From Eubacterium sp. (GTDB lineage Bacteria; Bacillota; Clostridia; Eubacteriales; Eubacteriaceae): a stretch of 37,693 nucleotides of DNA. The stretch covers positions 1-37,693 of the forward strand of contig JAUNGS010000017.1 of assembly GCA_030524435.1 (NCBI GenBank), written 5' to 3'. A program made the position numbers and the translations under genes. Of this stretch, positions 1 through 37,693 are shown piece by piece. The notes under the pieces were generated by a model. That model did no database searches and was not told where the DNA came from. It worked only from the letters and a program-made list of their open reading frames with translations. Position 1 is the first letter of the stretch; every line of letters begins with the position of its first letter.

Positions 1-128
1 TATACTAGAACTATGGGTCATTATTTATTTGTTGCACTTAGATTGTAAATTCAAGTTTGAAATAAGAGATGATCAATTTTTGCAGGAAATTATCGCTTTC
101 ATATAGATATCAGAACAAAGGAGAAAAA

Positions 129-3100
129 ATGATGAGAAGAGTAGAATCTTTGGGACGTGGAAAGACCATGGTGGCCCTGAGCTTTGCCGTGTTTATGGTC
201 ATGGTCGTGGTATTTTCCATGTTTTCATCCGTAGGCCTCGCCGCAGAGAAAACCATCGATACGTCATCAATGGATGACTGGCAGAAGACGACGGCTGACA
301 ATACCAGAAATATTGGACGGGTCTGGGTAGATAAATCGGTGTCCACCCAAGATGTCACCCTGCCCGGAGGCAATGAACCACAGGTGACCATGAATGCAGA
401 CGACGATTTCCTGGTAACCCTGTCGGCCCTGTCCTCGGCGGCCACGGTGACCGGAGAAAGCGCCACCTATGAACCCCTGGACATTGTCCTTGTGCTGGAT
501 ACCTCGGGGAGTATGGCCAGTGCCATGGGCAGCGGCACCTATTATGAAAAGGTGTGGGATACAGATGATACCTGGGAACAGGTCTGGAACAGAGGAAACC
601 GGGACAATCTGTATGTGCGGCTCAGCGATGGACAATATCGCCGTCTGGTTATCTCAAGGGGGTTTAACCGAAAATATACTGCCTACTATAGGGTCAATCG
701 AGAAGACGTTTATATTGCGCAGGATGTCAGCGGTGATGCCAAGATTTCACAGATACTGTATGTCTCCAGATCTAATATGACCCGTATGGACGCCCTTAGA
801 ACGGCGGCCAGCAATTTCATCGATGCTACCAGCGACATGAATGCCAAGATAACGGGTGCTGAAAATAAGCACCGGGTATCCCTGGTGACCTATGCGTCCG
901 ATGCCTATATACGCTATAGTTTGACTACCTGTGAGGGGTCAGATGCCGACAGTATAAAGAATACCATCGGCGGCTTATACGCCAACGGCTCCACAGGGGC
1001 TGACTACGCTATGGAAAAAACCCAAAAGGCTCTTGGTAATGCCAGAAGCGATGCTCAGAAGGTAGTGATCTTCTTCACCGATGGCGAGCCCAATCATTAC
1101 ACTGGTTTTGATGAAGATGTTGCCAACGCTGCTATTGGTAAAGCCAAAGAGATGAAAGCAGAGGATACTTTAATTTACTCCATCGGTGTCTTCCAAAGTG
1201 CCAATCCTGAAAACACGGGACAGGGTGGTAATGAAGAGCAAAATAACTTCAACGGCTACATGCACGCCATGTCCAGCAACTACCCTGACGCCACCAGCTA
1301 CACGCACCAAAGCCTTGGAGAGCGGGCTCAGATCGACGGCCAGGATTCCCAGTATTACAAGGCGGCCACTGACCCCGAGGGGCTGGACACCATCTTCTCG
1401 GATATTGCCTCCGAGCTTTCGGAGCGACCGGCCACCTCCCCCACGGAAATACAACAGGGAATGCAGCCCGACGAAACGGGGTATATCACCTTCAACGATC
1501 AGCTGGGCGACTACATGAAGGTCAACGACTTTAACGCCATTGTTTTCGCAGATAATGTTTATGAAAAAACAGAAAAAACCACATCTGGAAATACAGACAG
1601 GTATATTTTCCGTTATGAGGTATCGGGGAACGTGGTCTACCCCAACGGCAATTTAGAGGATATTGTCATTACGGTGGAAAAATCTGAGGACTTACAAACC
1701 GGGGATAAGGTCACGGTGAAAATTCCGGCCTCCTTAATTCCGCTGCGCTCCTACGATGTCGACATCGATCCGACCACCGGCAGCGCCACCACAGAAATCT
1801 CAGACACCTATCCCATTCGTATTTTCTACGGCGCAGGCCTGAAGAAAGGGGTAGAGGAAGCGTTGGAAAATCCCGACGAAACCCTCCAGGCGTATATCGA
1901 TGCCAACAAAACTTCAGACGGCAAGGTGTCTTTCTACGCCAATGCCTTCGAGGGAGAAGAAGCCGGTGTTACAGTAGATTACACACCGGCCAGCACCAAT
2001 GAATTTTACTATTTTGACAAGGATACAGCTCTCTATACAGATGAAGGCTGCACTCAGAGGGCAACAGAAATTGATAGCAATACAGCCTACTATTACCAGA
2101 GAACTTATTATGAAGCAGGTGAAGCAAAGGCGCCGCTGACGCGGGTTGTAGAGATTCCCAAAGACAGCAATGAAGTTCTCTCGGGCTTTGTGAAAAACGA
2201 TGCGGAGGGCCTGTATATTCCCAAGGGAACGCCGAGAATCACGGGCCTCTACGAATACGGACAAAAGAAAACAGATAATATGACTGCTACGGCGGGTTAT
2301 GTGTATAAACCAAGTTGGAGTAGCCTGGATACGACGATGGCACCGGGTGAAACGAGAAATGTCATCGCCCGTCTGGGCAACAACGGCCGCCTGGATGCAG
2401 ATCTCCCCGGGGAGCTGACGGTTTCTAAGACCGTTGCCGCTGAACAGGGGCACACCGCACCAGCTGAGGATAGCTTTACCTTCACCCTGGATTTAACAGC
2501 GCCCTCCGGCACTACCCTGAAGGACAGATACAATGCCCAGGTCTTTGATGCCGATGGCAAGGCGGTGGGCCCGGCCTTTACCCTTGCCGATAAAGGCACC
2601 TTTACCCTGAAGGATGGGGAAACCCTCCGCGTATACGGTCTGGCGGCAGGAACCGGCTACACGGTCACAGAAACTGCAAAGGCTCACTATACGACAACGC
2701 AAACAGGAGAAACGGGTACCATTGCCTCTGGCACAACCAGCAGTGCAGCCTTCACCAACACCTACAAGGCCGAGGCCGTAACGGTTGGCGGTACGGATCA
2801 CTTTAAAGCGGCCAAAACCTACAATGGCTGGGACAGCACCTCAGAGCGCTTTGAATTCGTCCTCCAGGCCCAGGGCAGTGCACCGCTGCCGGAAGGCAGT
2901 GCTGCCAATGAAAAAACGGCAGAGGTAACCCGGGATAATGCATCCAATGTCGATTTTGGGGCGATTACCTACACCGCACCCGGAACCTATACCTATGATA
3001 TCTTTGAGAGAACCCCCGAAAACGAGACTCCCGGGGTGACCTACTCCGATGCGGCCTACAGGGTTGTGGTCACGGTGACCGACAACAATGGCAAACTTGA

Positions 3101-6100
3101 GGCGTCCTCGACGATGACAAAAACGGTCAATGACGATGGTACCTCGGTGAACAATCCCCAGCCATTGCCAGACAATGCAAAGACTGCAGAAATCACCAAC
3201 AGCTTTGATGCCCAGGCCGCCAATGTCAGTCCCCTGGCCACAAAGCAGTATACGGATCACACGGGCAATAAGCCCCTGGTGGATGAGGCCTTTACCTTCT
3301 GCATTGAACGTGACGATACAAGCGTGCCCTTCCCCGAGGCGGCAGGCGATGCCCTGACCTGGGAGGTTAAAAACATCGGAGACACCATTGCCTTCGGTCA
3401 GATTCACTTTACTGCGGCAGATAACGGCAAGACCTACGACTATAAAATTTCCGAGGTCATGCCGGCCGAAGCCAATGAAGGCAATAATTATACCGTCAAT
3501 GGCATAAGCTATGATCCCACAAGCTACTATGTGCGCCTGGCGGTTTCTGTCCAGGAGGTCCAGGGTGAGGACATGGTTGTGGTCACCACCACCTATCACC
3601 GCGATGACGCGTCCAAAACTCAGCTGACAGCAGAGGCTCTGGATCAAAATGGCCGTGTCGCTTTTAAAAACAGCTATCAGGCGGCGGCGGTAACCCTCAG
3701 CGGCGATACCGCCCTCAAGGGTACCAAGACCATCACAGGCCGCGATATGAAGCAGGGAGAAAGCTATAAGTTTAGGCTGTCTCTGGCTGAGGCCAAGGAT
3801 ATCAGCGGCAGTGACATTAAAGACAGCGTCACCATGGCGAATACAGAAGCAACCGTACAGGGGGCTGCACAGGGTATCCCCGCAGACTTTAGCTTTGGCG
3901 ATATTACCTTTGCCAAAGCGGGAACCTACACCTTTAATATTGTCGAAGCTGCTCTTCCCCAGGACGGCAAGGGTATGACCTACGACAGACATACCGCAAA
4001 GGCAGTGGTCACCGTGACTGACAACAACGGACAGCTGGAAGCCAGCGTCGTGTACGATGGCGATACAGGCAAAACCGTTGCGGCCTTTGAAAATGTCTAT
4101 AAGGCTTCTATGGATTACGGCACCGACGGCGGCTTTGCGGTAGCCAAGACTCTAACGGGCCGCGGCATGGCAAATGGTGAATTTAACTTTACCATTGCCA
4201 AGGCGGCAGATGCCGATCCAAAAACGCCAGATCTCAGTGCCGAGGATGCGGCCTTTACAAATCCCTCCAGAGCAGCGGGGGCGGCGGCAGAAATGAAGAA
4301 GCTCAGCCTGAGCTTTACCCAGGCCGACGCAGGCAAAACCTACAGCTACATCGTGGATGAAGCCGAGGGCAATACCCCAGGCATTACCTACGATCAATCC
4401 CAGTACCGCGTGGACATTGCCGTCAGCGATAATGGAGACGGCACCATGCATACAGTAACGCAGGTTACGCGAATTGTGGACAAGGCAGGCAATGCCGTCA
4501 CTGAAAAGCTGGGTACTTACAATAGCGGGGATGCGGAAAAGCCTGTGGTAAGCTTTGAAAACAGCTACACCGCCGGGGCAGTTACCCTGGATACCAGTGT
4601 CGGCGCTTCCCTGAATAAGGTGCTTAGCGGCCGTGACTGGACAAAGAATGACAGCTTTAACTTTAATGTGACAAAGGTATCCTACAACGGCAGCACCGAT
4701 CAGGCAGCTTTGGATACCATGCCGAAACCGAACTCACCCATAACGGTGAGCAATGAAAATGGCAAGGACGGCGAACCCATAGCCTTTAGCCTTGGCCGTC
4801 TGACCTTTAGCAAGGCGGGCACTTACGTCTATCAGGTGCGCGAGGATAAGGCGGATACTGTAGAAAATGGTTTGACCTACTCAGATTACACAGCAGTGCT
4901 TACCATCAGCGTGACGGACGACGGCAGCGGACAGCTGAAAGCCAGTGCTTCTGTCGCCGGAAGCAGAGATTTCGTCAATACCTACACCTCCGCCATGCCC
5001 GAAGACCAAACCGCAAAGACCAAGGTCACCTTCACCAAGACCCTTGCGGGCCGCGACTGGACCGATGCCGACAGCTTTACCTTTAAGCTGACGGCTGAGG
5101 ACAATGCGCCACTGCCCAAGAATGCCCAGGGTGAGGATGTCACCAAAGTCACCGTTGGCAAACCGGAAAGTGGCAATGAGGCAGCCTTTAGCTTTGGCGA
5201 AATCGCCTTTACCTACGATATGATCAAGGATGCGCCGAATAAGACAAAAACCTTTGTCTATAGCGTCAGCGAGGATACGGGGGATAATGCAGGGATCACC
5301 TACGATACCCACACCGCAAAGGCAGAGATCACCGTCAAGGACAACGGCGACGGCACCATGTCGGCGACAGCCAACGTGATGGATTCAAGCTTTACCAATA
5401 TCTACAAGGCAGAGGTCAATTACGTCGCAGCCGGTGATTTTAATATCACCAAGGTACTCAATGGCCGGGCCATGACCTATGGTCAGTTTACCTTTAATCT
5501 GACCCCAGCTGACAAGGCCTCAGCCAGTAAGTTTAATATTCCTGAAGTGGGCGTAGGCCTGCCATCACTGGAGGCAGCCGACGGCGAAACCACTGTCATT
5601 CAGGCTTTTCTGGGTAAAAACATTGTCTTCACTCAGAAGGATGTGGGCCAGATCTACAGCTTTACCGTAACCGAGAGCAACGACGGCAAGGCAGGCTACA
5701 CCTACGACGATACGACCTATAGGGTAAAAATTGAAACGGCAGATGATGGCCAGGGCAAACTGACGGTCACCACCACCGTAAGCGACGGCAGCGCAGATAC
5801 CGCCTACACCTATGTGACGGGAGAAACCCCGGCCCAGACGGCAGCCGCAGCCTTTACCAACAGCTACCATGCCGAAGGAACCTTGGGCGGGGAAGGCAAC
5901 GCCAGCATCGAGGCCACCAAGACCTTAACCGGCCGTGACCTGATTGCAGGTGAGTTTGACTTCAATATTATAGATGCCAAGGACAATATAGTTTCTGCGG
6001 GAACCAACGACGCCGACGGCAGGATCACCTTCAGCCCCATCACCTACACCACCGAAGGTCTGAAGCAGGCGGTGAAAGCTGGCACGGCAACCTTAAAGGA

Positions 6101-7526
6101 CAATGTTTACAGCTTTGCTTACACCGCCGTGGAGGATACCACCCTCCTGCCGATGGGCGTATCTGCCACCGAGGATCTTTTCGCCTTTACGGTTGAGGTA
6201 AAGGATAATGGCGACGGTACCCTGGGTATCGAAGTAAAAGCGCCGGAGGGCGGCATCGCCTTTGAAAACACCTACTCCGCCGGAGGGCCCATCAGCTTTA
6301 TCCCGAAGGGGACCAAGCGTCTGGCTGCGGCCGAGGGCTTGACGGCACCGGACATCACCGGCAAATTTACCTTCACCCTCTACAATAATGAGACGGGTGA
6401 AGTGATAGACACAACAACCAACGACGAACACGGCAATGTTGTCTTCGATGCCTTGAGCTTTGATCTGGACATGCTGGAGGGAGCAGAAACGGCTGAGGAT
6501 GGATCCCGCCGTCGCACCTTTGTCTACAGGGTAGAGGAAAGCGGCGAGGTACCTGGCATCACCAACGACAGTCAAAACGTAAGCTATATTTACTTGACGC
6601 TGATCGATGACGGCATAGGCGAGATAACCGTTTGGACCGACGGCGGCTATACCGGCCATTTCTCCTTCACCAACACCTACAGCGTCACCCCGACGACCTC
6701 CAGTGTCAGCGAGGATCTCGACATCACCAAGGTGCTGACCGGCCGTGATATGCAGGAGGGCGAATTCAGCTTTGTGCTGAAGGATGCAGGCAATGCTGTG
6801 GTTGCTGAAGGCACCAACGGCGCCGATGGCAGCATTGGTCTCTCGGGTATTGAATTTGATAAACCGGGAACCTACAGCTACACCCTAAGTGAAACCGCAG
6901 GCGAAGCCGGCGGCGTAGACTACGACGGCACGGTTTACGAGGTAAGGGCAGTGGTCACCGACAACAGCGACGGCACTCTGTCTGTAGCCTGGGAAACCGA
7001 AGGCGAGACCATCGTCTTTAACAACAGCTACAAGGCCGAAGCGACCAGCGTTGTGCTGGGGGCCTCCAAGGTCCTTGAGGGCAGAGATCTCAGCGCCGAT
7101 GAATTCACCTTCGTGCTGAAGGATGAGCAGGGCGAGGTTGTCTCTGAGGCCAGCAATGATGCCGAGGGCAATATCAGCTTCGAGCCCGTGGAATTCACGG
7201 AGGCGGGCAGCTACAGCTACACCATTTCCGAGGTGACGGGCAAAGACAAGACCATCACCTACGACACCAAGGAATACAGCGTTACAATCACGGTAACCGA
7301 TGATCTGGAAGGACATCTGACGGCGACGGTGGATAACGGCGACGAAACGCCGGTATTCACCAACAAGTACACGGCGCCGGCAGCACCCCAGAAGGAGGAA
7401 ACTAAGGTTATCACCAATATCGTCACAGGTATTGGCGGCTCCGGCGGCATGATTTCCGTCGGTGTGGTGCTTGCAGCCGTTACAGCGCTGGGCATCACAG
7501 CCATTGTACGCAAAAAACGCGCTTAA
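129..7526 (+). CDS. Giant vWA / FctA-repeat surface adhesin (pilus-tip-like)
   Basis: Encodes 2465 residues. I start at ATG 129 because AAAGGAG (117-123) sits at good spacing; an in-frame ATG at 69 lacks such a site and would bury the signal peptide. Residues about 13-39 form a signal peptide ending near GLAAEK. A vWA domain follows, with MIDAS DTSGS at 124-128, GSTG near 287 and FFTDGEP around D318; about 85 residues are inserted between the MIDAS loop and the next helix, as in RrgA-type pilus adhesins. A Cna-B-like module starts near 759. Eleven FctA-like modules (about 115-155 residues each) run from about 881 to 2414, each with K-x-L-x-GR, Y-x-Y-x-I/V-x-E and F-x-N-x-Y. That pattern fits self-forming Lys-Asn isopeptide bonds with a catalytic Glu. 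The C-terminus has NIVTG (2430-2434), a hydrophobic helix (2441-2459) and RKKRA, resembling a sortase signal without LPxTG. No sortase gene is nearby. Probably a wall-anchored adhesin; the ligand is unknown. Confidence 0.92.
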   Translation: MMRRVESLGRGKTMVALSFAVFMVMVVVFSMFSSVGLAAEKTIDTSSMDDWQKTTADNTRNIGRVWVDKSVSTQDVTLPGGNEPQVTMNADDDFLVTLSALSSAATVTGESATYEPLDIVLVLDTSGSMASAMGSGTYYEKVWDTDDTWEQVWNRGNRDNLYVRLSDGQYRRLVISRGFNRKYTAYYRVNREDVYIAQDVSGDAKISQILYVSRSNMTRMDALRTAASNFIDATSDMNAKITGAENKHRVSLVTYASDAYIRYSLTTCEGSDADSIKNTIGGLYANGSTGADYAMEKTQKALGNARSDAQKVVIFFTDGEPNHYTGFDEDVANAAIGKAKEMKAEDTLIYSIGVFQSANPENTGQGGNEEQNNFNGYMHAMSSNYPDATSYTHQSLGERAQIDGQDSQYYKAATDPEGLDTIFSDIASELSERPATSPTEIQQGMQPDETGYITFNDQLGDYMKVNDFNAIVFADNVYEKTEKTTSGNTDRYIFRYEVSGNVVYPNGNLEDIVITVEKSEDLQTGDKVTVKIPASLIPLRSYDVDIDPTTGSATTEISDTYPIRIFYGAGLKKGVEEALENPDETLQAYIDANKTSDGKVSFYANAFEGEEAGVTVDYTPASTNEFYYFDKDTALYTDEGCTQRATEIDSNTAYYYQRTYYEAGEAKAPLTRVVEIPKDSNEVLSGFVKNDAEGLYIPKGTPRITGLYEYGQKKTDNMTATAGYVYKPSWSSLDTTMAPGETRNVIARLGNNGRLDADLPGELTVSKTVAAEQGHTAPAEDSFTFTLDLTAPSGTTLKDRYNAQVFDADGKAVGPAFTLADKGTFTLKDGETLRVYGLAAGTGYTVTETAKAHYTTTQTGETGTIASGTTSSAAFTNTYKAEAVTVGGTDHFKAAKTYNGWDSTSERFEFVLQAQGSAPLPEGSAANEKTAEVTRDNASNVDFGAITYTAPGTYTYDIFERTPENETPGVTYSDAAYRVVVTVTDNNGKLEASSTMTKTVNDDGTSVNNPQPLPDNAKTAEITNSFDAQAANVSPLATKQYTDHTGNKPLVDEAFTFCIERDDTSVPFPEAAGDALTWEVKNIGDTIAFGQIHFTAADNGKTYDYKISEVMPAEANEGNNYTVNGISYDPTSYYVRLAVSVQEVQGEDMVVVTTTYHRDDASKTQLTAEALDQNGRVAFKNSYQAAAVTLSGDTALKGTKTITGRDMKQGESYKFRLSLAEAKDISGSDIKDSVTMANTEATVQGAAQGIPADFSFGDITFAKAGTYTFNIVEAALPQDGKGMTYDRHTAKAVVTVTDNNGQLEASVVYDGDTGKTVAAFENVYKASMDYGTDGGFAVAKTLTGRGMANGEFNFTIAKAADADPKTPDLSAEDAAFTNPSRAAGAAAEMKKLSLSFTQADAGKTYSYIVDEAEGNTPGITYDQSQYRVDIAVSDNGDGTMHTVTQVTRIVDKAGNAVTEKLGTYNSGDAEKPVVSFENSYTAGAVTLDTSVGASLNKVLSGRDWTKNDSFNFNVTKVSYNGSTDQAALDTMPKPNSPITVSNENGKDGEPIAFSLGRLTFSKAGTYVYQVREDKADTVENGLTYSDYTAVLTISVTDDGSGQLKASASVAGSRDFVNTYTSAMPEDQTAKTKVTFTKTLAGRDWTDADSFTFKLTAEDNAPLPKNAQGEDVTKVTVGKPESGNEAAFSFGEIAFTYDMIKDAPNKTKTFVYSVSEDTGDNAGITYDTHTAKAEITVKDNGDGTMSATANVMDSSFTNIYKAEVNYVAAGDFNITKVLNGRAMTYGQFTFNLTPADKASASKFNIPEVGVGLPSLEAADGETTVIQAFLGKNIVFTQKDVGQIYSFTVTESNDGKAGYTYDDTTYRVKIETADDGQGKLTVTTTVSDGSADTAYTYVTGETPAQTAAAAFTNSYHAEGTLGGEGNASIEATKTLTGRDLIAGEFDFNIIDAKDNIVSAGTNDADGRITFSPITYTTEGLKQAVKAGTATLKDNVYSFAYTAVEDTTLLPMGVSATEDLFAFTVEVKDNGDGTLGIEVKAPEGGIAFENTYSAGGPISFIPKGTKRLAAAEGLTAPDITGKFTFTLYNNETGEVIDTTTNDEHGNVVFDALSFDLDMLEGAETAEDGSRRRTFVYRVEESGEVPGITNDSQNVSYIYLTLIDDGIGEITVWTDGGYTGHFSFTNTYSVTPTTSSVSEDLDITKVLTGRDMQEGEFSFVLKDAGNAVVAEGTNGADGSIGLSGIEFDKPGTYSYTLSETAGEAGGVDYDGTVYEVRAVVTDNSDGTLSVAWETEGETIVFNNSYKAEATSVVLGASKVLEGRDLSADEFTFVLKDEQGEVVSEASNDAEGNISFEPVEFTEAGSYSYTISEVTGKDKTITYDTKEYSVTITVTDDLEGHLTATVDNGDETPVFTNKYTAPAAPQKEETKVITNIVTGIGGSGGMISVGVVLAAVTALGITAIVRKKRA

Positions 7527-7545
7527 TCAACTAAGTGTATTTCAG

Positions 7546-7568
7546 GGGAGGCTTCGGCCTCCCTTTTT
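7546..7568 (+). terminator. Rho-independent terminator of the adhesin gene
   Basis: A perfect 7-bp stem GGGAGGC / GCCTCCC with a stable TTCG tetraloop is followed at once by TTTTT. It lies 20 bases after the adhesin stop codon. Confidence 0.92.
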
Positions 7569-7592
7569 CTGTTTCGGTTACAGCGAATTTTT

Positions 7593-7926
7593 CTGTCCAC
7601 AGCTGTTGAAATTTCTTTTTCCGCAGCTTTTCCCACATTATAAACAAAATTATCCACAGATAAGGGGAAATTTACCGGAGGTCTGGCGATCATTTTATGG
7701 GAAAAGCAGGGCAAATTTTATAAAAAAGACACTATATTTTGTGAATTCTTTAATTTAAAGTGCGCAATCCAAAAAGTTTTCCACACTATCCACAGGTTTA
7801 TCCCCAGGCATCTTTTATAAAAAAGCGCTTTTGCCCCGGGCTTTTCCACAAATTTGGTCACAAAGGGGATAAATTGTGGAAAAGGGCTGTCTTTTTCCCA
7901 AAAAGAAAAGTGCAGTCCTTTTCACA
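7593..7926. other. Cluster of DnaA-box-like 9-mers in a non-coding gap
   Basis: The 492-base gap 7527-8018 has no convincing gene. It holds one perfect TTATCCACA (7650-7658) and five one-mismatch copies: TTTTCCACA 7777-7785, CTATCCACA 7786-7794 (abutting the previous one), TTATCCCCA 7798-7806, TTTTCCACA 7842-7850, and a minus-strand copy at 7875-7883. Two-mismatch copies occur at 7593-7601, 7629-7637, 7854-7862, 7864-7872 (minus) and 7918-7926. A very AT-rich stretch (about 7714-7760) lies between the first perfect box and the tandem pair. This looks like a DnaA-binding region. dnaA and dnaN are absent and genes on both sides run mainly on the + strand, so I do not call it oriC. Confidence 0.6.
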
Positions 7927-7966
7927 AAATTTCCAGGGTCCGAAGGCTTTCAATTCCTCGGGGAAA

Positions 7967-7975
7967 TGGTAGAAT
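7967..7975 (+). promoter_or_regulatory. Extended -10 promoter for the HAD phosphatase gene
   Basis: TGG followed by TAGAAT (7970-7975) forms an extended -10 element. The upstream -35 (TTTCAA at 7948-7953, 16-base spacer) is weak. The expected transcript start is near 7982, giving a short leader before ATG 8019. Confidence 0.45.
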
Positions 7976-8018
7976 GAGGCTAGGACGATACTAAAACGGA
8001 CAGAGGAGTTTTTAGAAC

Positions 8019-8873
8019 ATGAATATAAAATTATTGGCTTTGGACATGGACGGCACCACCCTGGGCAGCGATATCTCCGTGGCCCAGGAGACAAAGGCGG
8101 CGATTTCAGAGGCTGTGGCATCGGGGGTTATCGTGGTGCCCACCACCGGCAGGGTGCTCCAGGAGCTCCCCGAAGAAATCACAGACCTTTCCGGCATCGA
8201 CTACGCCATCACCTCCAACGGCGCCAGGGTGACGGATATGTGCCGAAATAAAAGCATTTACACGAATCCCTTAAGCAAAGCGGAATTAAAGCGTATTCTT
8301 GAAATTTTTGAGGATTTTGATTTGATGCTGGACGCCTATGTTGAGGGAAAGACCATGGTGACAAAGTACAGTCTGGACCACCTGGCGGAGTACAATGTGC
8401 CGCGCCAGTACTGGGATTTTTTCCACGAAACCAGAAAGCCCGTGGCGGATGCCTCTGCCTACAAGGATTATCTGCTGACCCACGAGGTGGAAAAGTTCAA
8501 TATCTTTTTCAGAAATATGGCGGACAGAGAACGCCTGGCGGCGGTGCTTACCCAACAGACAAAGCTCACCATCACCTCGGCGGTGGAAAACAACCTGGAA
8601 ATCAACAACCCCACGGCCAACAAGGCCGACGGGCTGAAGCAGCTGTGCCAGGTGCTCGGCATTAAACCCCAGGAGGTCATGGCCGTCGGCGACAGCAACA
8701 ACGACTACGATATGCTGTCCTACGCCGGGCTGGCCGTGGCCATGGCCAACGGCATCGACCGCGTCAAGGCCATCGCCGACTTTGTGACCAAGTCCAATGA
8801 TGAATTTGGGGTGGCCTGGGCCATCGACAAATACATTCTGAAGAACGAGGCCCAGAGGGCGCAGGCATCTTAG
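8019..8873 (+). CDS. Cof-type HAD superfamily hydrolase
   Basis: 284 residues, the usual length for the Cof/YidA class of cytosolic sugar-phosphate or nucleotide phosphatases. Motif I is DMDGT, with nucleophile D9 and acid/base D11. Motif II is in PTTGR, the conserved Lys is in the NKADGL segment, and motif IV is GDSNND at 224-229 for magnesium binding. The cap lies between motifs II and III, as in the C2 class. AGAGGAG (8002-8008) precedes ATG 8019. It opens a run of closely spaced + strand genes and ends in TAG. The substrate cannot be read from sequence. Confidence 0.92.
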   Translation: MNIKLLALDMDGTTLGSDISVAQETKAAISEAVASGVIVVPTTGRVLQELPEEITDLSGIDYAITSNGARVTDMCRNKSIYTNPLSKAELKRILEIFEDFDLMLDAYVEGKTMVTKYSLDHLAEYNVPRQYWDFFHETRKPVADASAYKDYLLTHEVEKFNIFFRNMADRERLAAVLTQQTKLTITSAVENNLEINNPTANKADGLKQLCQVLGIKPQEVMAVGDSNNDYDMLSYAGLAVAMANGIDRVKAIADFVTKSNDEFGVAWAIDKYILKNEAQRAQAS

Positions 8874-30998: not shown

Positions 30999-31039
30999 AG
31001 TGATATAAGAGGTGAGATGAAAATCTGGAGAAAATAAAA

Positions 31040-31699
31040 ATGTATAAATTAATTGCGTTTGATTATGATGGTACTTTGGCAGATACGTTTGATTTTCACG
31101 TAAAATCGATTGGACATATTTTACGAAGTTGTGGTTCTCGGGTTGATGATCGAGAAGTGGGGGAGCTTATTGGAAAAACTTTAAAATATATTTTTGATAA
31201 AACCTTACCCTGCGAAAAGCACGCATTGGCTGTTGAAACCATGGAAAAGTTTTATGGTGATATACCAACTGAATATTGGGAGTATGTAAAACTATTTGAC
31301 GGTGTTGAAAAAACGCTGTCAGGTTTAAAACAGAGGGGGCTCAAACTGGCGCTGGTAACAAATTCACATAGGAAGCTTATTGAAGCAAGCTTGTGTCATG
31401 TTAAAATCTATTCGTATTTCGATTTTATTGAAGCTGCAGACGAAGACTCATATAATAAAGAACAAAGAATTGAAAAAGTTATACAACGATCTAAAATTGA
31501 AAAAAACAAAATTCTCTATGTTGGAGATACATCAGGAGATGTGAAAGATGCTCAAAAAAGTGGTATAAAGGCGTGTCTTGTAAATAATAAAAGCTCGTGG
31601 ATACATCGAGAAAAAACCAATATTTTTGATTTAAGACCGGATCTAACAATCAGCAGTATTAAAGAACTGTTGGAAATAATAAAAATTAATGGGAGCTAA
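31040..31699 (+). CDS. HAD-family phosphatase (PGP/beta-PGM-like)
   Basis: 219 residues. Motif I is AFDYDGTLADT (nucleophile Asp at about residue 8), motif II ALVTNSHRK, motif III a Lys in the EKVIQRSKIEKNK region, motif IV YVGDTSGDVKDA. The small helical cap is of the C1 class, as in phosphoglycolate phosphatase. AT-rich, unlike the genes to its left. The GntR gene begins one base after its stop, so they share a transcript. It probably removes phosphate from an intermediate or dead-end sugar phosphate of the cluster; the exact substrate is unknown. Confidence 0.88.
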   Translation: MYKLIAFDYDGTLADTFDFHVKSIGHILRSCGSRVDDREVGELIGKTLKYIFDKTLPCEKHALAVETMEKFYGDIPTEYWEYVKLFDGVEKTLSGLKQRGLKLALVTNSHRKLIEASLCHVKIYSYFDFIEAADEDSYNKEQRIEKVIQRSKIEKNKILYVGDTSGDVKDAQKSGIKACLVNNKSSWIHREKTNIFDLRPDLTISSIKELLEIIKINGS

Positions 31700-31700
31700 A

Positions 31701-32441
31701 ATGTTAAATGGAAAAATAGATAAAAATGTTCCAATTCCTCTGTATTTTCAGCTGAAAGAACTGATTATTAACGAAATAAAGTCTGGCAACTATAAAAAAG
31801 ACGAACTGATACCGACGGAAAAAGAGTTTATGGATATGTATCAAATTAGCAGAACGACCGTCCGGCAGGCGATGACAGAATTGGTGCAGGAAGGCTGGCT
31901 TTATCGTATAAAAAGTAAGGGAACCTTTGTTACTTATCCAAAAACGAATCATAATTTTATTCAAACCTTAGATTCCTTCAATGAACAAATGGAGAGGGTG
32001 GGTGCTACCCATAGAACCGAGGTGCTCGCTTTAGAGATCATAGAGGCCTCCGAGTTGGTGGCTGAAGGATTAAATATAAAAGCTGGTGAGCCGGTAATTT
32101 ATTTGTATCGTAGGCGGTTTGCAAATGAGGAGCCTGTTATTTTACAGAAAGCATACTTAAATTATGAGAGATGCAAGGCTTTGCTAAAAAGGGATTTTAC
32201 AAAGGATTATCTATATAAGTGTTTAGCTGAAGAAGAACAAACAAGAATTACGCATGTAAGGCGGATTGTTGAAGTGGACGAGGCAAACCTGGAAGATGAA
32301 AAATTACTGGATATGAAAAAGGGAAAACCAGTTCAGGCTTTTATAACCATTGGCTGCAACGTATTTGGAGAAATTATTGAATACTCATTGGCCAGATACA
32401 GAGGGGATAAAAGCAGATTTGAAGTGGTTGTAGATATTTAA
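31701..32441 (+). CDS. GntR-family regulator, HutC/UTRA type
   Basis: 246 residues from ATG 31701, five bases after GGGAG (31691-31695); the in-frame ATG at 31689 lies inside the HAD gene. The N-terminal winged helix-turn-helix is typical: PLYFQLKELIINEIKSGNYK followed by LIPTEKEFMDMYQISRTTVRQAM. The UTRA effector domain, starting near residue 80, includes PVIYLYRRRFANEEPV. Such proteins usually sense sugar or amino-sugar phosphates. It most likely binds the TGTCATGACA palindrome found at its own promoter and before the kinase gene. Confidence 0.93.
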   Translation: MLNGKIDKNVPIPLYFQLKELIINEIKSGNYKKDELIPTEKEFMDMYQISRTTVRQAMTELVQEGWLYRIKSKGTFVTYPKTNHNFIQTLDSFNEQMERVGATHRTEVLALEIIEASELVAEGLNIKAGEPVIYLYRRRFANEEPVILQKAYLNYERCKALLKRDFTKDYLYKCLAEEEQTRITHVRRIVEVDEANLEDEKLLDMKKGKPVQAFITIGCNVFGEIIEYSLARYRGDKSRFEVVVDI

Positions 32442-32459
32442 TGCGTAAATTTTATAATG

Positions 32460-32494
32460 AGAGAGCTGTATGGCTGTGAATATAGCTCTCTTTT
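32460..32494 (+). terminator. Terminator after the GntR gene
   Basis: AGAGAGCT (32460-32467) pairs with AGCTCTCT (32484-32491), ending in TTTT. It separates the regulator unit from the kinase unit. Confidence 0.75.
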
Positions 32495-32498
32495 AGAA

Positions 32499-32527
32499 TT
32501 GACAAGAAAAAAGAAACATGCTATTAT
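32499..32527 (+). promoter_or_regulatory. Promoter of the FGGY kinase unit
   Basis: Perfect TTGACA (32499-32504), 17-base spacer and TATTAT (32522-32527). The operator begins eight bases after it. Confidence 0.8.
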
Positions 32528-32534
32528 ATCGTTA

Positions 32535-32544
32535 TGTCATGACA
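32535..32544. promoter_or_regulatory. Palindromic operator, copy 2
   Basis: TGTCATGACA, identical to the core of copy 1 and again placed on the predicted transcript start. Confidence 0.7.
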
Positions 32545-32584
32545 ATACAATATTATGATTAAAGATTCAATAAGGGGGTAAATA

Positions 32585-34081
32585 ATGGATAATTTGATGT
32601 TAGGGATTGATGTGGGAACACAGAGTATTAGAATTGCTCTGGTTAATGAGAATGGAAATGTTATTGGCATGCGTCAGCGAACACATTTTATTGAAACCCC
32701 AAAAGCAAACTGGGCAGTACAGGATCCAGATTCCTGGTGGAATATTATTAAAGAAGAATGTCCTAAGCTGATTGAGGAAAGTAATGTAAAAAAAGAACAG
32801 ATTATTTCAATTGGTGTTGATGGACATATGCACGCGGCGGTGCCGGTGGGTTATGACGGAAAATTACTGAGCAATGAGGTCCAGCTCTATTGCGATAAGC
32901 GCAATTCTAAGATTGTTGACGATTTTGTGGTATCGGATGCGTGGAATGAAAAGTTATACAATCAAACGGCGAACTTTCCGATAACGAATTGGATTGCCTT
33001 TAAAATGAAGTGGATCAAGGAAAACCAACCAGAAGTTTATGAGAAAACATGGAAATTTTTAACAACGAAAGATTATATCAATTTTTGTCTTACCGGCAAT
33101 GCAGTTATTGATGTTTCTGAAGCCTCAGGCACATTTTTAATGAACTGTGATACCTGTAAATGGTCAGATGAATTAATTAATGCCATTGGTATTGATAAGG
33201 AAAAACTGCCGACGATTTATGAATCTTATGAATGCATTGGCACTGTTACCGAAGAAACGGCGCAGGTATTAGGAATTAATCCAGGTGTTTCAGTCGCAGC
33301 AGGCTGCGGAGATACAATGGCTAATTTAATGGTGACGGGAGTAACAGAGTACGGTGTTTTAGCAGATATTACAGGAACTGGATCAACAATATGTCTGTAC
33401 ACTGAAACGCCAGTTAAAGATAAACGACTGATGAATTTAAGATATTCGGCAAAGGGCTGGCTGGCCTTTGGCTGTTTAGATTCTTCGGGTGCAGCGTACC
33501 GCTGGTTTAAAGACACAGTTTCGGAGAATGAAACCTACGAATCTTTAAATGTATTGGCTGAAAAAACAGAGGCAGGGGCAGAAAAACTGTTCTTTTATCC
33601 TTATCTTGCGGGAGAAAGAACCCTTGGTTCTGTACATTCAAGAGGGATGTTTATTGGATTGTCTACACGGCACACAAAGGGGCATATGGTTCGAGCCATT
33701 CAGGAAGGAATCGCATTTGAGCATAAAAGAGCGCTGGAAATTATGGAAGATGCGGGATTTAATATCGAGTGTGTATACCATAGTGGCGGTGCAGCTAAGG
33801 GGGATCTTTGGAATCAGATTAAGGCAGATATTTATGACACGGAAGTGCGAACCATTGAAGAAAGTGAAAGTGCAGTCCTGGGTGCGGCCTTGTTAGGCGG
33901 AAATGCGGCAGGGTTATTCGATGATATTTTGAAAAAAGCAAAAGAATTATTGAGGGTAAAAAAGGCTTATGTGCCCAAGGAGAGTCGTCAGCAGGTGTAT
34001 AAGCAGCATTTTGAAATCTATAAGGAAATGCATGATGTGCTGCAGCCTTCGTTTATCAAATTGGGAAATATAGATAATTGA
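32585..34081 (+). CDS. FGGY-family carbohydrate kinase (xylulokinase-like)
   Basis: 498 residues, normal for the family. It transfers phosphate from ATP to a sugar or polyol. The N-terminal phosphate loop GIDVGTQSIRIAL and the GVDGHMHA segment start the FGGY fold. The ATPase core is seen in GCGDTMANLMVTG, ADITGTGSTICLY and HSGGAAKGDLWNQIKADIY. The closest group by eye is XylB, but substrate residues cannot be judged safely. A GGGGG site precedes ATG 32585. With the SDR and DeoC genes downstream, it probably phosphorylates a ketose or deoxy sugar that is later cleaved. Confidence 0.9.
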   Translation: MDNLMLGIDVGTQSIRIALVNENGNVIGMRQRTHFIETPKANWAVQDPDSWWNIIKEECPKLIEESNVKKEQIISIGVDGHMHAAVPVGYDGKLLSNEVQLYCDKRNSKIVDDFVVSDAWNEKLYNQTANFPITNWIAFKMKWIKENQPEVYEKTWKFLTTKDYINFCLTGNAVIDVSEASGTFLMNCDTCKWSDELINAIGIDKEKLPTIYESYECIGTVTEETAQVLGINPGVSVAAGCGDTMANLMVTGVTEYGVLADITGTGSTICLYTETPVKDKRLMNLRYSAKGWLAFGCLDSSGAAYRWFKDTVSENETYESLNVLAEKTEAGAEKLFFYPYLAGERTLGSVHSRGMFIGLSTRHTKGHMVRAIQEGIAFEHKRALEIMEDAGFNIECVYHSGGAAKGDLWNQIKADIYDTEVRTIEESESAVLGAALLGGNAAGLFDDILKKAKELLRVKKAYVPKESRQQVYKQHFEIYKEMHDVLQPSFIKLGNIDN

Positions 34082-34089
34082 GCTAAAAA

Positions 34090-34596
34090 ATGGAATTTGC
34101 AGATGTTATACGATCGAGGCAAAGTGTAAGGGAATATAGTCACCAGAAAATTCAAAGATCTTTGCTGAAAGAACTATGTGTTTCTGGTCTTGCAGCACCA
34201 TCGGCAAACAACAAAAAACCCTGTGAATTTATTGTTATAGAGGATCGGGAAAAGCTCATTAAACTAAGCAGCTTGAAACCGCAATGGAGTATGTTAAAAC
34301 AGGCGGCAGCAGCGATTTTGGTTCTTGGAAGGTATGATAAGTATTTTCAGCAAAATTGTGCCGCTGCAACGGAAAATATATTACTGGATGCGACAAGCAG
34401 ACAAATAGGCAGCGTATGGCTAGGACTGTATCCCAATAAAGATATCGTTCAAGCGGTTAAAGAGCTTTTTAAATTGCCGGAAACAATAGAACCGTTTTGT
34501 TTTGTTTCGTTGGGATACCCCCAACAGAACATTCAAAAGTATGTTGAATATGATTTTTCGAAAATTTATTTTGAAGCATACAATAAAAATGCTTGA
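34090..34596 (+). CDS. Nitroreductase-family flavoprotein
   Basis: 168 residues. The N-terminal IRSRQSVREYSHQKI segment and APSANNKKPCEFIVI bind FMN in this fold, and ENILLDATSRQIGSVWLGLYP is the family's central helix. Members reduce nitro groups, quinones, enones or flavins with NAD(P)H. It begins nine bases after the kinase stop and belongs to the same transcript. A flavin reductase in a sugar cluster is odd and may serve an enone or thiol-linked step; that is speculation. Confidence 0.88.
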   Translation: MEFADVIRSRQSVREYSHQKIQRSLLKELCVSGLAAPSANNKKPCEFIVIEDREKLIKLSSLKPQWSMLKQAAAAILVLGRYDKYFQQNCAAATENILLDATSRQIGSVWLGLYPNKDIVQAVKELFKLPETIEPFCFVSLGYPQQNIQKYVEYDFSKIYFEAYNKNA

Positions 34597-34676
34597 CGAT
34601 AAAACGTTTTGTATAATTTTACAATCCTCAAAGGAAGGGAATGGAGCGTATAATAAATAATAGTTTCACATCAAAA

Positions 34677-34694
34677 TGTCATTACATTGTGACA
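34677..34694. promoter_or_regulatory. Degenerate operator, copy 3
   Basis: TGTCATTACA (34677-34686) differs from the core operator at one base, and a further TGACA half-site follows at 34690-34694. It lies in the 125-base gap before the SDR gene. TATAAT hexamers occur at 34612-34617 and 34649-34654, but neither has a proper -35, so the promoter is unclear. Confidence 0.45.
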
Positions 34695-34721
34695 AAATAA
34701 TGTAAAAGAAAGAGGATAAGG

Positions 34722-35477
34722 ATGGATCTTTTTAATTTGAAAGGAAAGCACGCCATTGTTACAGGCGGCACAGGTGGTATTGGAAAGGCTTTAACCAAAG
34801 GGTTATTAGAAGCTGGAGTTGAGGTTGCAGTTTTGGATTATAGCTCCAAACTTGATGTGCTAAAAAAGGAACTGTCTGAATTTGGAAAAATGCACACTTT
34901 TCAATGCAATTTGGCGGATAAAACAATGCGCTGTGAGGTATTCGACCAAGCGGTACAGGCATTAAATGGAAATTTGGATATTTTAGTTAATTCGGCTGGA
35001 GTGCAAAAACGCGGAAAAATTCTTGATTTTAAAGATGAGGATTGGGACTTTGTGATGGAGGTCAATATCAATGCTGTTTTTGCGATGACACAGTGTGCCG
35101 GAAAATATATGCTTCCCAAAAAAAAGGGGAAAATTATTAATATAGCTTCAATGAACAGCTATTTTGGAGGAACGAATGTGCCGCCGTATGCGAGCTCTAA
35201 AGGCGCAGTGGTTCAGCTGACGAAGGCTATAGCAAATGAATGGAGTGCTTACGGTATTAACGCGAATGCGATAGCACCGGGTTTTATTGAAACGCCAATG
35301 ACAGCAGATATGAAAGAGAACAAAGAAGTCTATGAGTATAAAAGAAACAGAATTCCCAAGGGGCGCTGGGGGCTGCCTGAAGATCTGATCGGAACGCTTT
35401 TGTATCTATGTTCTGATGCATCGGATTATGTATGCGGTGTGACAATACCAGTAGACGGCGGATATTTGTGTAAATAG
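34722..35477 (+). CDS. Short-chain dehydrogenase/reductase
   Basis: 251 residues, a classical SDR. The NAD(P)-binding glycine motif is TGGTGGIG near residue 16, NSAG lies near residue 90, a catalytic Ser is in NIASMNS, and YASSK holds the Tyr and Lys. The C-terminal PVDGGYLCK is the usual end. The nearest functional groups are polyol, gluconate-5 and KduD-like dehydrogenases. AGAGGATAAGG precedes ATG 34722. It begins 12 bases before the DeoC genes and probably forms the keto sugar they cleave, or reduces a product. Confidence 0.92.
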   Translation: MDLFNLKGKHAIVTGGTGGIGKALTKGLLEAGVEVAVLDYSSKLDVLKKELSEFGKMHTFQCNLADKTMRCEVFDQAVQALNGNLDILVNSAGVQKRGKILDFKDEDWDFVMEVNINAVFAMTQCAGKYMLPKKKGKIINIASMNSYFGGTNVPPYASSKGAVVQLTKAIANEWSAYGINANAIAPGFIETPMTADMKENKEVYEYKRNRIPKGRWGLPEDLIGTLLYLCSDASDYVCGVTIPVDGGYLCK

Positions 35478-35489
35478 AGGAGTTAAAAT

Positions 35490-36239
35490 ATGATTGACTT
35501 GACAAAAGTAGAGAACAGAGCCATTGCCGAGCGTGTTCGCGAGGAAGGGCGGGAATTAATGAGTAAGGCTCATTTTGGTGTTCAAGGGATTGCAAAAACA
35601 GAAAATGACGTAAAAGCAGCGTTGTCACGCTTACAGAAAACAGGATTTAAACCAATGGCCTTTGATACAGAGATGAACTTTGTACCGATTGTGCGCAATA
35701 TAGTTGGAGATACATATAACTTGCATTGTGCAGTCTCCTATCCGCTGGGAAGAATGACATTGAAAAAGAAGATGCAGGATCTTGAAACACTGTTGAAGAT
35801 GGATATAAAGGATGTATGTGTTTGTCTGGATTGGCAGGCCATTTTTTCACATCGGTATAAAGATGTGGAAAAGGAAGCTCGTGCAATTGTAAAAGAGTTT
35901 GATGGGCTTTTCACCAAAAATGCCTATGTTATTCCAGCTACACTGCTCAGCGATACGGAAATGAAAGATACTCTTTCTGCCTTGGATGAGGCAGGTGTTT
36001 ACTCAGTCAAGGTTAATCCAGGGTGTAAATTGGGGGTTTCCTTTGAGGAGGTAGCATTAATTAAGCGGCTTTATCCAAATCGTTTTGATATTCATCCATC
36101 TGGTAATATACGGACTCTTGAAGCTTTCGAGAAATTTATGGAGCTTGGCTGTCAGGTTATTCACACTGCCAGCGCATTAGATATTGTAGAAGCTTATATG
36201 GAACGTCAGTTAAAAATTTATGGAGGAATTGAGGAATGA
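35490..36239 (+). CDS. DeoC-like aldolase-family protein 1 (divergent)
   Basis: 249 residues, class I aldolase barrel of the DeoC/LacD superfamily. The Schiff-base lysine position is kept as K174 in SVKVNPGCKLG, replacing the usual IKTSTGF. The second catalytic Lys of DeoC (VKAAGGIR) is replaced by the IHPSGNIR region, where His takes its place. LHCAVSYPLG matches [10 protein letters not shown] of the third copy. It overlaps the next gene by four bases (ATGA). It may be an aldolase of altered specificity rather than deoxyribose-phosphate aldolase. Confidence 0.8.
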   Translation: MIDLTKVENRAIAERVREEGRELMSKAHFGVQGIAKTENDVKAALSRLQKTGFKPMAFDTEMNFVPIVRNIVGDTYNLHCAVSYPLGRMTLKKKMQDLETLLKMDIKDVCVCLDWQAIFSHRYKDVEKEARAIVKEFDGLFTKNAYVIPATLLSDTEMKDTLSALDEAGVYSVKVNPGCKLGVSFEEVALIKRLYPNRFDIHPSGNIRTLEAFEKFMELGCQVIHTASALDIVEAYMERQLKIYGGIEE

Positions 36240-36892
36240 GTCTAGAAACAAGATTGGATTACTCAAATATTCAGTTATACAGGATCGGCGATACTGAAAT
36301 AGAAAATTTAGTATTTAAAGCCCTGAAATACAATATCAGCACCATTGTTGTAGGTCCTTCGGCAATGAATATTGTTTACAATACGCTAAGATCTGGAGAA
36401 AATTTAAACGTAAATGTGGCTGTTTCCTATCCTTCAGGAGCTTATACCAGCGAAGCCAAAATTCAGGAGATCGAGGGATTGCTGGAATTAGGCAATAAAA
36501 TTGATGGATTTTATATTCCTATGCAGGTAGGCTTGTATTTAAGCGGGTATAAGGAGGAAGCTTTCTGTGAACTGAAAGCCTTGGTCAAAGCGGCAAAGGG
36601 GATCCCAGTAAAAATCATTACAGAGATTGGTGTTATGTCGGATAAGCAGATAAAAGAGGTTTGTGAGATGGCCATTGCGGCAGGTGCAGACAGCCTTGTC
36701 ACTTCAGCTGGATTTTCTCCATATGATGTGCCTGGGCCAAGTGAAGCACAATACAAAATGCTCGTTCAAGCAGCAGATGGACAGATTCAGATTATTGCGA
36801 ATGAAGACAATCTGACGAAAGAGCAGGCAGAAAATATTTTAAAACTAGGTGTTGATAGAATTTGTACACCGAAGGCAGTAAACTTTTTATAA
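36236..36892 (+). CDS. DeoC-like protein 2, lacking the Schiff-base lysine
   Basis: 218 residues, the same barrel as its neighbours: [20 protein letters not shown] and [12 protein letters not shown]. In DeoC the last motif is IKTSTGF; here the Schiff-base Lys is V155. The second Lys (VKAAGGIR) is also gone (QIIANEDN). The Asp of the EIDYVINIG strand corresponds to D90, and K126 is retained. It is therefore unlikely to work as a class I aldolase. It overlaps gene 1 and lies 22 bases before gene 3, which fits a structural or regulatory partner, or a different reaction. Confidence 0.8.
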
Positions 36893-36914
36893 AAGAGAGA
36901 GAGGAAAAAATATT

Positions 36915-37604
36915 ATGAAAGCATTGACGGTTAATGAACTGGCAGCATATTTTGATCATACACAGCTGAAGGCCTTTGCCCATAAAGAAGATTTTGAAAA
37001 ACTATGTTCAGAAGCGGCAGAATATGGGTTTGCTATGGTAGCCATTAACTCATCGCCGGTAGCATTATGTAAAAAATTGTTAGAAAACACAAAGGTACAT
37101 GTGGGAGCAGCAATTAGTTTTCCACTCGGGCAAACGACAATTGAGGCAAAGGTTTTTGAAACTAAGAATGCAATTGAAAATGGCGCTGATGAAATTGATT
37201 ATGTTATAAATATTGGAGAGTTAAAGAACGGAAACTGGGAATATATCAAAAAAGAAATGGAAAGCATGGTCAATATTTGCAGAGCGCACCAGGTATTGAT
37301 CAAAGTGATTTTTGAGAATTGCTATTTGGAAAAAGAAGAGATTACTCAGTTGGCAAAAATTGCCAAAGAAATAAAACCAGATTATATAAAGACTTCCACT
37401 GGATTTGGCACAGGGGGTGCGACGATTGATGATGTTAAATTGATGAAAGAAATCGTTGGCGATGAGGTGAAGGTAAAGGCAGCAGGTGGTATTCGTAATT
37501 TAGAAACTTGTATGGCGATGATTGAGGCCGGTGCTGATAGAATTGGCTGCAGTGCCAGTGTTGAAATTACAGAAGCGTATAAAAAATATTTGCAGGAAAA
37601 ATGA
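36915..37604 (+). CDS. deoC: Deoxyribose-phosphate aldolase (DeoC)
   Basis: 229 residues with the complete DeoC set: DHTQLKA at the N-terminus, [11 protein letters not shown] (D95), [14 protein letters not shown] with Schiff-base K159, and [10 protein letters not shown] with K188. DeoC splits 2-deoxyribose 5-phosphate into acetaldehyde and glyceraldehyde 3-phosphate. It is the only one of the three adjacent copies that keeps all catalytic residues. AGAGAGAGGAAA precedes ATG 36915. Since the cluster has a kinase and an SDR but no phosphopentomutase or nucleoside phosphorylase, its substrate may be another (deoxy)sugar phosphate. Confidence 0.92.
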
Positions 37605-37635
37605 TTTAGATAAACCATGAAAATTGCTTGGATTA

Positions 37636-37663
37636 AGGGTTCTATAGATGATTATAGAACCCT
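37636..37663. promoter_or_regulatory. Perfect hairpin/palindrome after deoC
   Basis: AGGGTTCTATA (37636-37646) pairs exactly with TATAGAACCCT (37653-37663) around a 6-base loop. No T-run follows, so it may slow RNA decay or bind a protein rather than terminate. The final bases (GGAGGT at the window edge) look like the RBS of a further gene in the cluster. Confidence 0.5.
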
Positions 37664-37693
37664 CAAACTGTAGACAAAAATGGTGTTGGAGGT

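Follow-up and report, generated by a model that had tools for sequence, protein, structure and literature searches.

The intergenic gap at positions 7527-8018 (492 bp) of the window, which is the entire 37,693-base contig C68 of a 2.16-Mb Eubacterium draft assembly (96 contigs, ~81% complete), holds a real cluster of DnaA boxes outside oriC. Of a set of five such clusters it is the one that is not conserved in relatives, and its main interest lies in this exception, the kind of locus being already known. By analogy with Bacillus subtilis, we consider it probable that the gap carries a lineage-specific DnaA-box cluster of the kind described in that species, serving mainly as a reservoir of DnaA.

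The box cluster and its surroundings

The cluster separates a gene for a large surface protein from a gene for a hydrolase whose nearest named relative, that of Eubacterium callanderi, shares 61% identity with it. This places the host within the limosum/callanderi group of Eubacterium or in a lineage sister to it; the closest genomes used for comparison were four of the same genus. The features of the gap and its flanks are as follows:

69-7526, + strand: surface adhesin/pilin-like protein, 2485 aa, with a VWA domain and 11 FctA/Spy0128-like isopeptide domains; upstream of the cluster
7544-7565, + strand: intrinsic terminator of the upstream adhesin gene (9-pair stem, 4-base loop, T tail)
7593-7646, + strand: four two-mismatch boxes (starts 7593, 7617, 7629 and 7638); weak matches, candidate sites
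7650-7658, + strand: perfect DnaA box TTATCCACA, motif match
~7713-7760, no strand: AT-rich stretch between the box groups, 74% AT in 50-base windows, without a DnaA-trio run
7777-7785, + strand: one-mismatch DnaA box TTTTCCACA, abutting the next box
7786-7794, + strand: one-mismatch DnaA box CTATCCACA, motif match
7798-7806, + strand: one-mismatch DnaA box TTATCCCCA, motif match
7842-7850, + strand: one-mismatch DnaA box TTTTCCACA, left arm of a 14-nt inverted repeat
7864-7872, - strand: two-mismatch box TTATCCCCT, motif match
7875-7883, - strand: one-mismatch DnaA box TTTTCCACA, right arm of the inverted repeat
7970-7975, + strand: TAGAAT, probable -10 element of the HAD gene; same position and sequence upstream of the orthologue in four same-genus genomes
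8019-8873, + strand: Cof-type HAD-IIB family hydrolase (TIGR00099, 170.6 bits against a cut-off of 137; PF08282); downstream of the cluster

Scored against TTATCCACA, the gap contains eleven boxes if up to two mismatches are allowed, and six if only one is. A first-pass annotation of the same DNA had listed one perfect, five one-mismatch and at least five two-mismatch copies, and our recount returned one, five and five, all within 7593-7883. The abutting pair that it described is also present, the boxes at 7777 and 7786 adjoining exactly, as is the adjoining AT-rich stretch; five of the six boxes with at most one mismatch point in one direction. Its description of the gap as otherwise empty was likewise borne out, as no credible gene was found in 7527-8018, the next gene beginning at 8019, and only the adhesin terminator and the HAD -10 element accompany the boxes. 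There was no Rfam match across the window, on which ground an RNA element was rejected. As an observation apart, two of the TTTTCCACA boxes form the 14-nt inverted repeat at 7841-7884 (93% complementary, 16-nt spacer), which could be an operator for another regulator.

The density of boxes exceeds chance expectation, as had been claimed, by two measures. Among 5000 dinucleotide shuffles of the gap, none reached the observed six boxes with at most one mismatch (shuffle mean 0.11), none the eleven with at most two (mean 1.55), and none the four copies of TTWTCCACA (mean 0.02); the reversed motif had no match in the gap. Additionally, a pattern search listing every TTDTCCACA site in the assembly returned 139 sites, and at least four of these fall within 350 bp in only five stretches outside the dnaA region (on contigs C81, C87, C68, C56 and C45), of which the window cluster, on C68, is one; for uniformly scattered sites 0.0003 such stretches would be expected. 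Under the stricter pattern of four TTWTCCACA sites per 350 bp, three stretches were found genome-wide, the window cluster among them, against an expectation of 0.00005.

Conservation of the five clusters

The four companion clusters, which resemble that of the window in kind and density, lie between pyrG and nadE (13 boxes; L009, C45 2722-3108), beside eno (C87), upstream of eutL (C81), and upstream of a yabB/trmN-like methyltransferase gene (L010, C56 2643-2812). Each holds two to four perfect boxes, compared with one in the window cluster. The cluster downstream of pyrG was present in all 12 Eubacteriaceae genomes tested, with 6-9 boxes each; in many of these clusters, boxes of the same orientation recur with their starts 22 and 9 apart. 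Where both genes could be located in a single-contig genome (four genomes), the distance from pyrG to dnaA is 13-15% of the chromosome. The eutL cluster occurs in the four same-genus genomes and is absent from the other genera tested, and the eno and yabB-like clusters have counterparts beside the corresponding genes of the complete relative G003 (C1 508174-508463, L147, and 861478-861930, L165), where they lie ~181 kb and ~172 kb from dnaA, respectively, on opposite sides. The pyrG and window clusters share the same motif and a similar number of boxes, with abutting pairs in several genomes; however, the former is fixed at one gene in 12 of 12 family genomes whereas the latter is not conserved. 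Of the two, the pyrG cluster is the better candidate for a functional DnaA-control locus. By eye, the yabB/trmN-like gene on C56 also sits near a ricT (yaaT)-like gene; in B. subtilis the ricT (yaaT) neighbourhood holds yabA, a DnaA regulator.

For the window cluster the outcome was different. The HAD gene has orthologues in 26 other genomes (E below 1e-40), and in none of these did the 600 bp upstream of it yield two or more boxes when a single mismatch was allowed, ruling out a cluster conserved together with the HAD gene in those genomes. The first-pass annotation had listed a lack of conservation of the boxes in relatives among the findings that would speak against its proposals, and that is what was found for the gap. 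The TAGAAT element and its neighbourhood are kept in the four same-genus genomes despite the missing cluster, so that the HAD gene comes with the same promoter within the genus, and the difference lies in the DNA beyond it. In G003 the HAD gene is preceded by another gene, the homologue of which lies here on C81, and none of 40 relatives has a close homologue of the adhesin, two of them giving matches to shared domains only. The cluster therefore lies at the boundary of a lineage-specific rearrangement or insertion. The genome contains no second copy of the 501-bp stretch, nor were flanking repeats found, and a repeat or mobile element is thereby ruled out.

The same orthologues qualify the earlier statement that the gap lies far from dnaA. 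It holds insofar as dnaA is on a different contig, C90; in same-genus genomes, however, the HAD orthologue is only ~162 kb (G001), ~155 kb (G003) and ~160 kb (G002) from dnaA, equivalent to ~3.5-3.7% of the chromosome in the two of these genomes that are single contigs. Gene order near the HAD gene is conserved only in part, and other window genes map elsewhere in relatives. The distances in relatives therefore suggest that the window site may be origin-proximal, a placement to be read in light of that partly broken synteny and of the division of the genome itself into 96 contigs.

A probable reservoir of DnaA and its alternatives

Of the roles proposed at first pass, titration of DnaA is the best supported because the genome has a small set of clusters and relatives share four of these; the proposals as a whole are supported in part. 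B. subtilis likewise has several DnaA-box clusters besides oriC, and its origin, too, is bipartite and flanks dnaA (Okumura et al. 2012, as cited in PMC5295017 and PMC13220808). The B. subtilis clusters number six, compared with five here, some of which are origin-near in relatives of this genome. The window cluster shares with them a box density beyond chance and a position outside oriC (C68 as opposed to C90). Deletion of the six B. subtilis clusters outside oriC results in early initiation (PMC5295017; PMC13220808); one review nevertheless assigns them no significant role, a strong phenotype requiring the removal of all six (PMC5295017).

Were the window cluster such a reservoir, DnaA would bind the perfect box and the TTTTCCACA boxes and would fill the weaker neighbouring boxes cooperatively, a mode of occupancy favoured because the boxes at 7777 and 7786 abut and that at 7798 closely follows. 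The window site and the four other clusters would together hold part of the DnaA pool, such that free DnaA would reach its threshold at oriC later. If the site is indeed origin-proximal, the copy number of the cluster would double soon after initiation, which might help to prevent early re-initiation. Counting against a reservoir role are the lack of a cluster at the HAD orthologue in 26 other genomes and the presence of a single perfect box, and the lack of conservation lowers confidence in any essential role.

A more specific version of the reservoir reading can be offered only tentatively, namely that a conserved core of clusters (pyrG, eno, eutL and yabB-like) was recently joined by a lineage-specific one arising at a rearrangement boundary. 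If this is correct, the titration load on DnaA turns over in evolution. To our knowledge, the control of DnaA availability has been little studied in Firmicutes outside Bacillus, and the titles retrieved for DnaA in E. limosum included nothing relevant. Should DnaA prove to bind at the five clusters, acetogenic Eubacterium would constitute a second system for testing titration by dispersed clusters, one in which the conserved core points to function and the lineage-specific member provides a comparison.

The main rival to the reservoir reading is that DnaA acts here as a transcription factor, the boxes tying expression of the HAD phosphatase to the level of DnaA-ATP or to replication stress. 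Control of this flanking gene, also raised at first pass, is possible in principle, as the boxes end at 7883, ~85 bp upstream of the conserved -10 element at 7970, and in B. subtilis DnaA regulates transcription from several sites (PMC4447404). Yet that same spacing leaves the core promoter free of boxes and makes simple promoter occlusion unlikely, relatives keep the same -10 region without a box cluster upstream, and this general type of HAD phosphatase is no obvious DnaA target; on balance we regard such control as unlikely.

The rearrangement boundary raises another alternative, that the cluster is a remnant or by-product of rearrangement whose boxes derive from another cluster or from AT-rich spacer DNA and are now neutral. 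The lack of conservation upstream of the HAD gene, the different upstream gene in relatives, and the fact that the strong boxes are mostly non-perfect are all consistent with such an origin. Six boxes with at most one mismatch, an abutting pair among them, are nevertheless hard to reconcile with the 0.11 expected from composition, and the genome yielded neither a second copy nor a donor sequence. We therefore judge a neutral remnant improbable.

An active site in place of a passive reservoir, whether DARS-like (regenerating DnaA-ATP) or datA-like (hydrolysing ATP), seems very improbable, and the suggestion of a DnaA-reactivating locus gained no positive support. The number of boxes and their intergenic position resemble such loci in outline only; indeed, datA of Escherichia coli is also an intergenic DnaA-box cluster and lowers available DnaA-ATP. 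However, datA acts by IHF-dependent ATP hydrolysis (PMC5295017). Both datA and DARS2 need IHF or Fis; neither IHF nor these loci are present in B. subtilis (PMC13220808). Of the six better boxes in the gap, five share one orientation, the spacing is not common to any conserved cluster, and no result obtained here supports an effect on nucleotide state.

Location of the replication origin

The canonical oriC of this genome is the dnaA-dnaN region on C90, where dnaA has rnpA on one side and, on the other, dnaN followed by more genes orthologous to those around dnaA in G003. The dnaA-dnaN gap contains two perfect boxes and one TTGTCCACA box, together with a DnaA-trio run, TAATAGTAATAG (C90:89646), beside the perfect box at 89671; additional boxes lie upstream of dnaA, and G003 has the same dnaA-dnaN arrangement with a longer trio run. 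GC skew has its minimum near dnaA on C90, changing sign within ~10 kb of the gene there and at dnaA in G003. The window has no such negative-to-positive switch, its skew being approximately zero over the adhesin gene and positive beyond it, and the GC-skew check that had been proposed for this site thus points to dnaA instead.

The window gap also has no TA[GA] run of two or more, the only repeat found in a search for iterons across 7400-8100 was one two-copy 19-nt repeat, and the nine window proteins scanned were metabolic, surface or without a match, with no replication gene among them. It therefore has neither the dnaA/dnaN adjacency, trio run and GC-skew minimum of a B. subtilis-type oriC nor the tandem iterons and, among those nine proteins, the nearby rep gene of a plasmid origin. 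The clustering of boxes beside an AT-rich stretch is in keeping with the proposal of an origin separate from dnaA, but with a trio-bearing canonical origin on C90 and the skew switch located there and in G003, the trio, skew and dnaA context rule this out for the gap, leaving a second or alternative chromosomal origin, or that of an integrated plasmid, with next to no probability.

Finally, at the far end of the window (31000-37693) the GC content falls sharply from ~54% to 34-42% and the skew rises. Judged by eye, the open reading frames in this segment resemble those of a GntR-type regulator, a carbohydrate kinase, aldolases and a dehydrogenase, and the segment has the appearance of an acquired island for sugar use or of a change where the assembly was joined.
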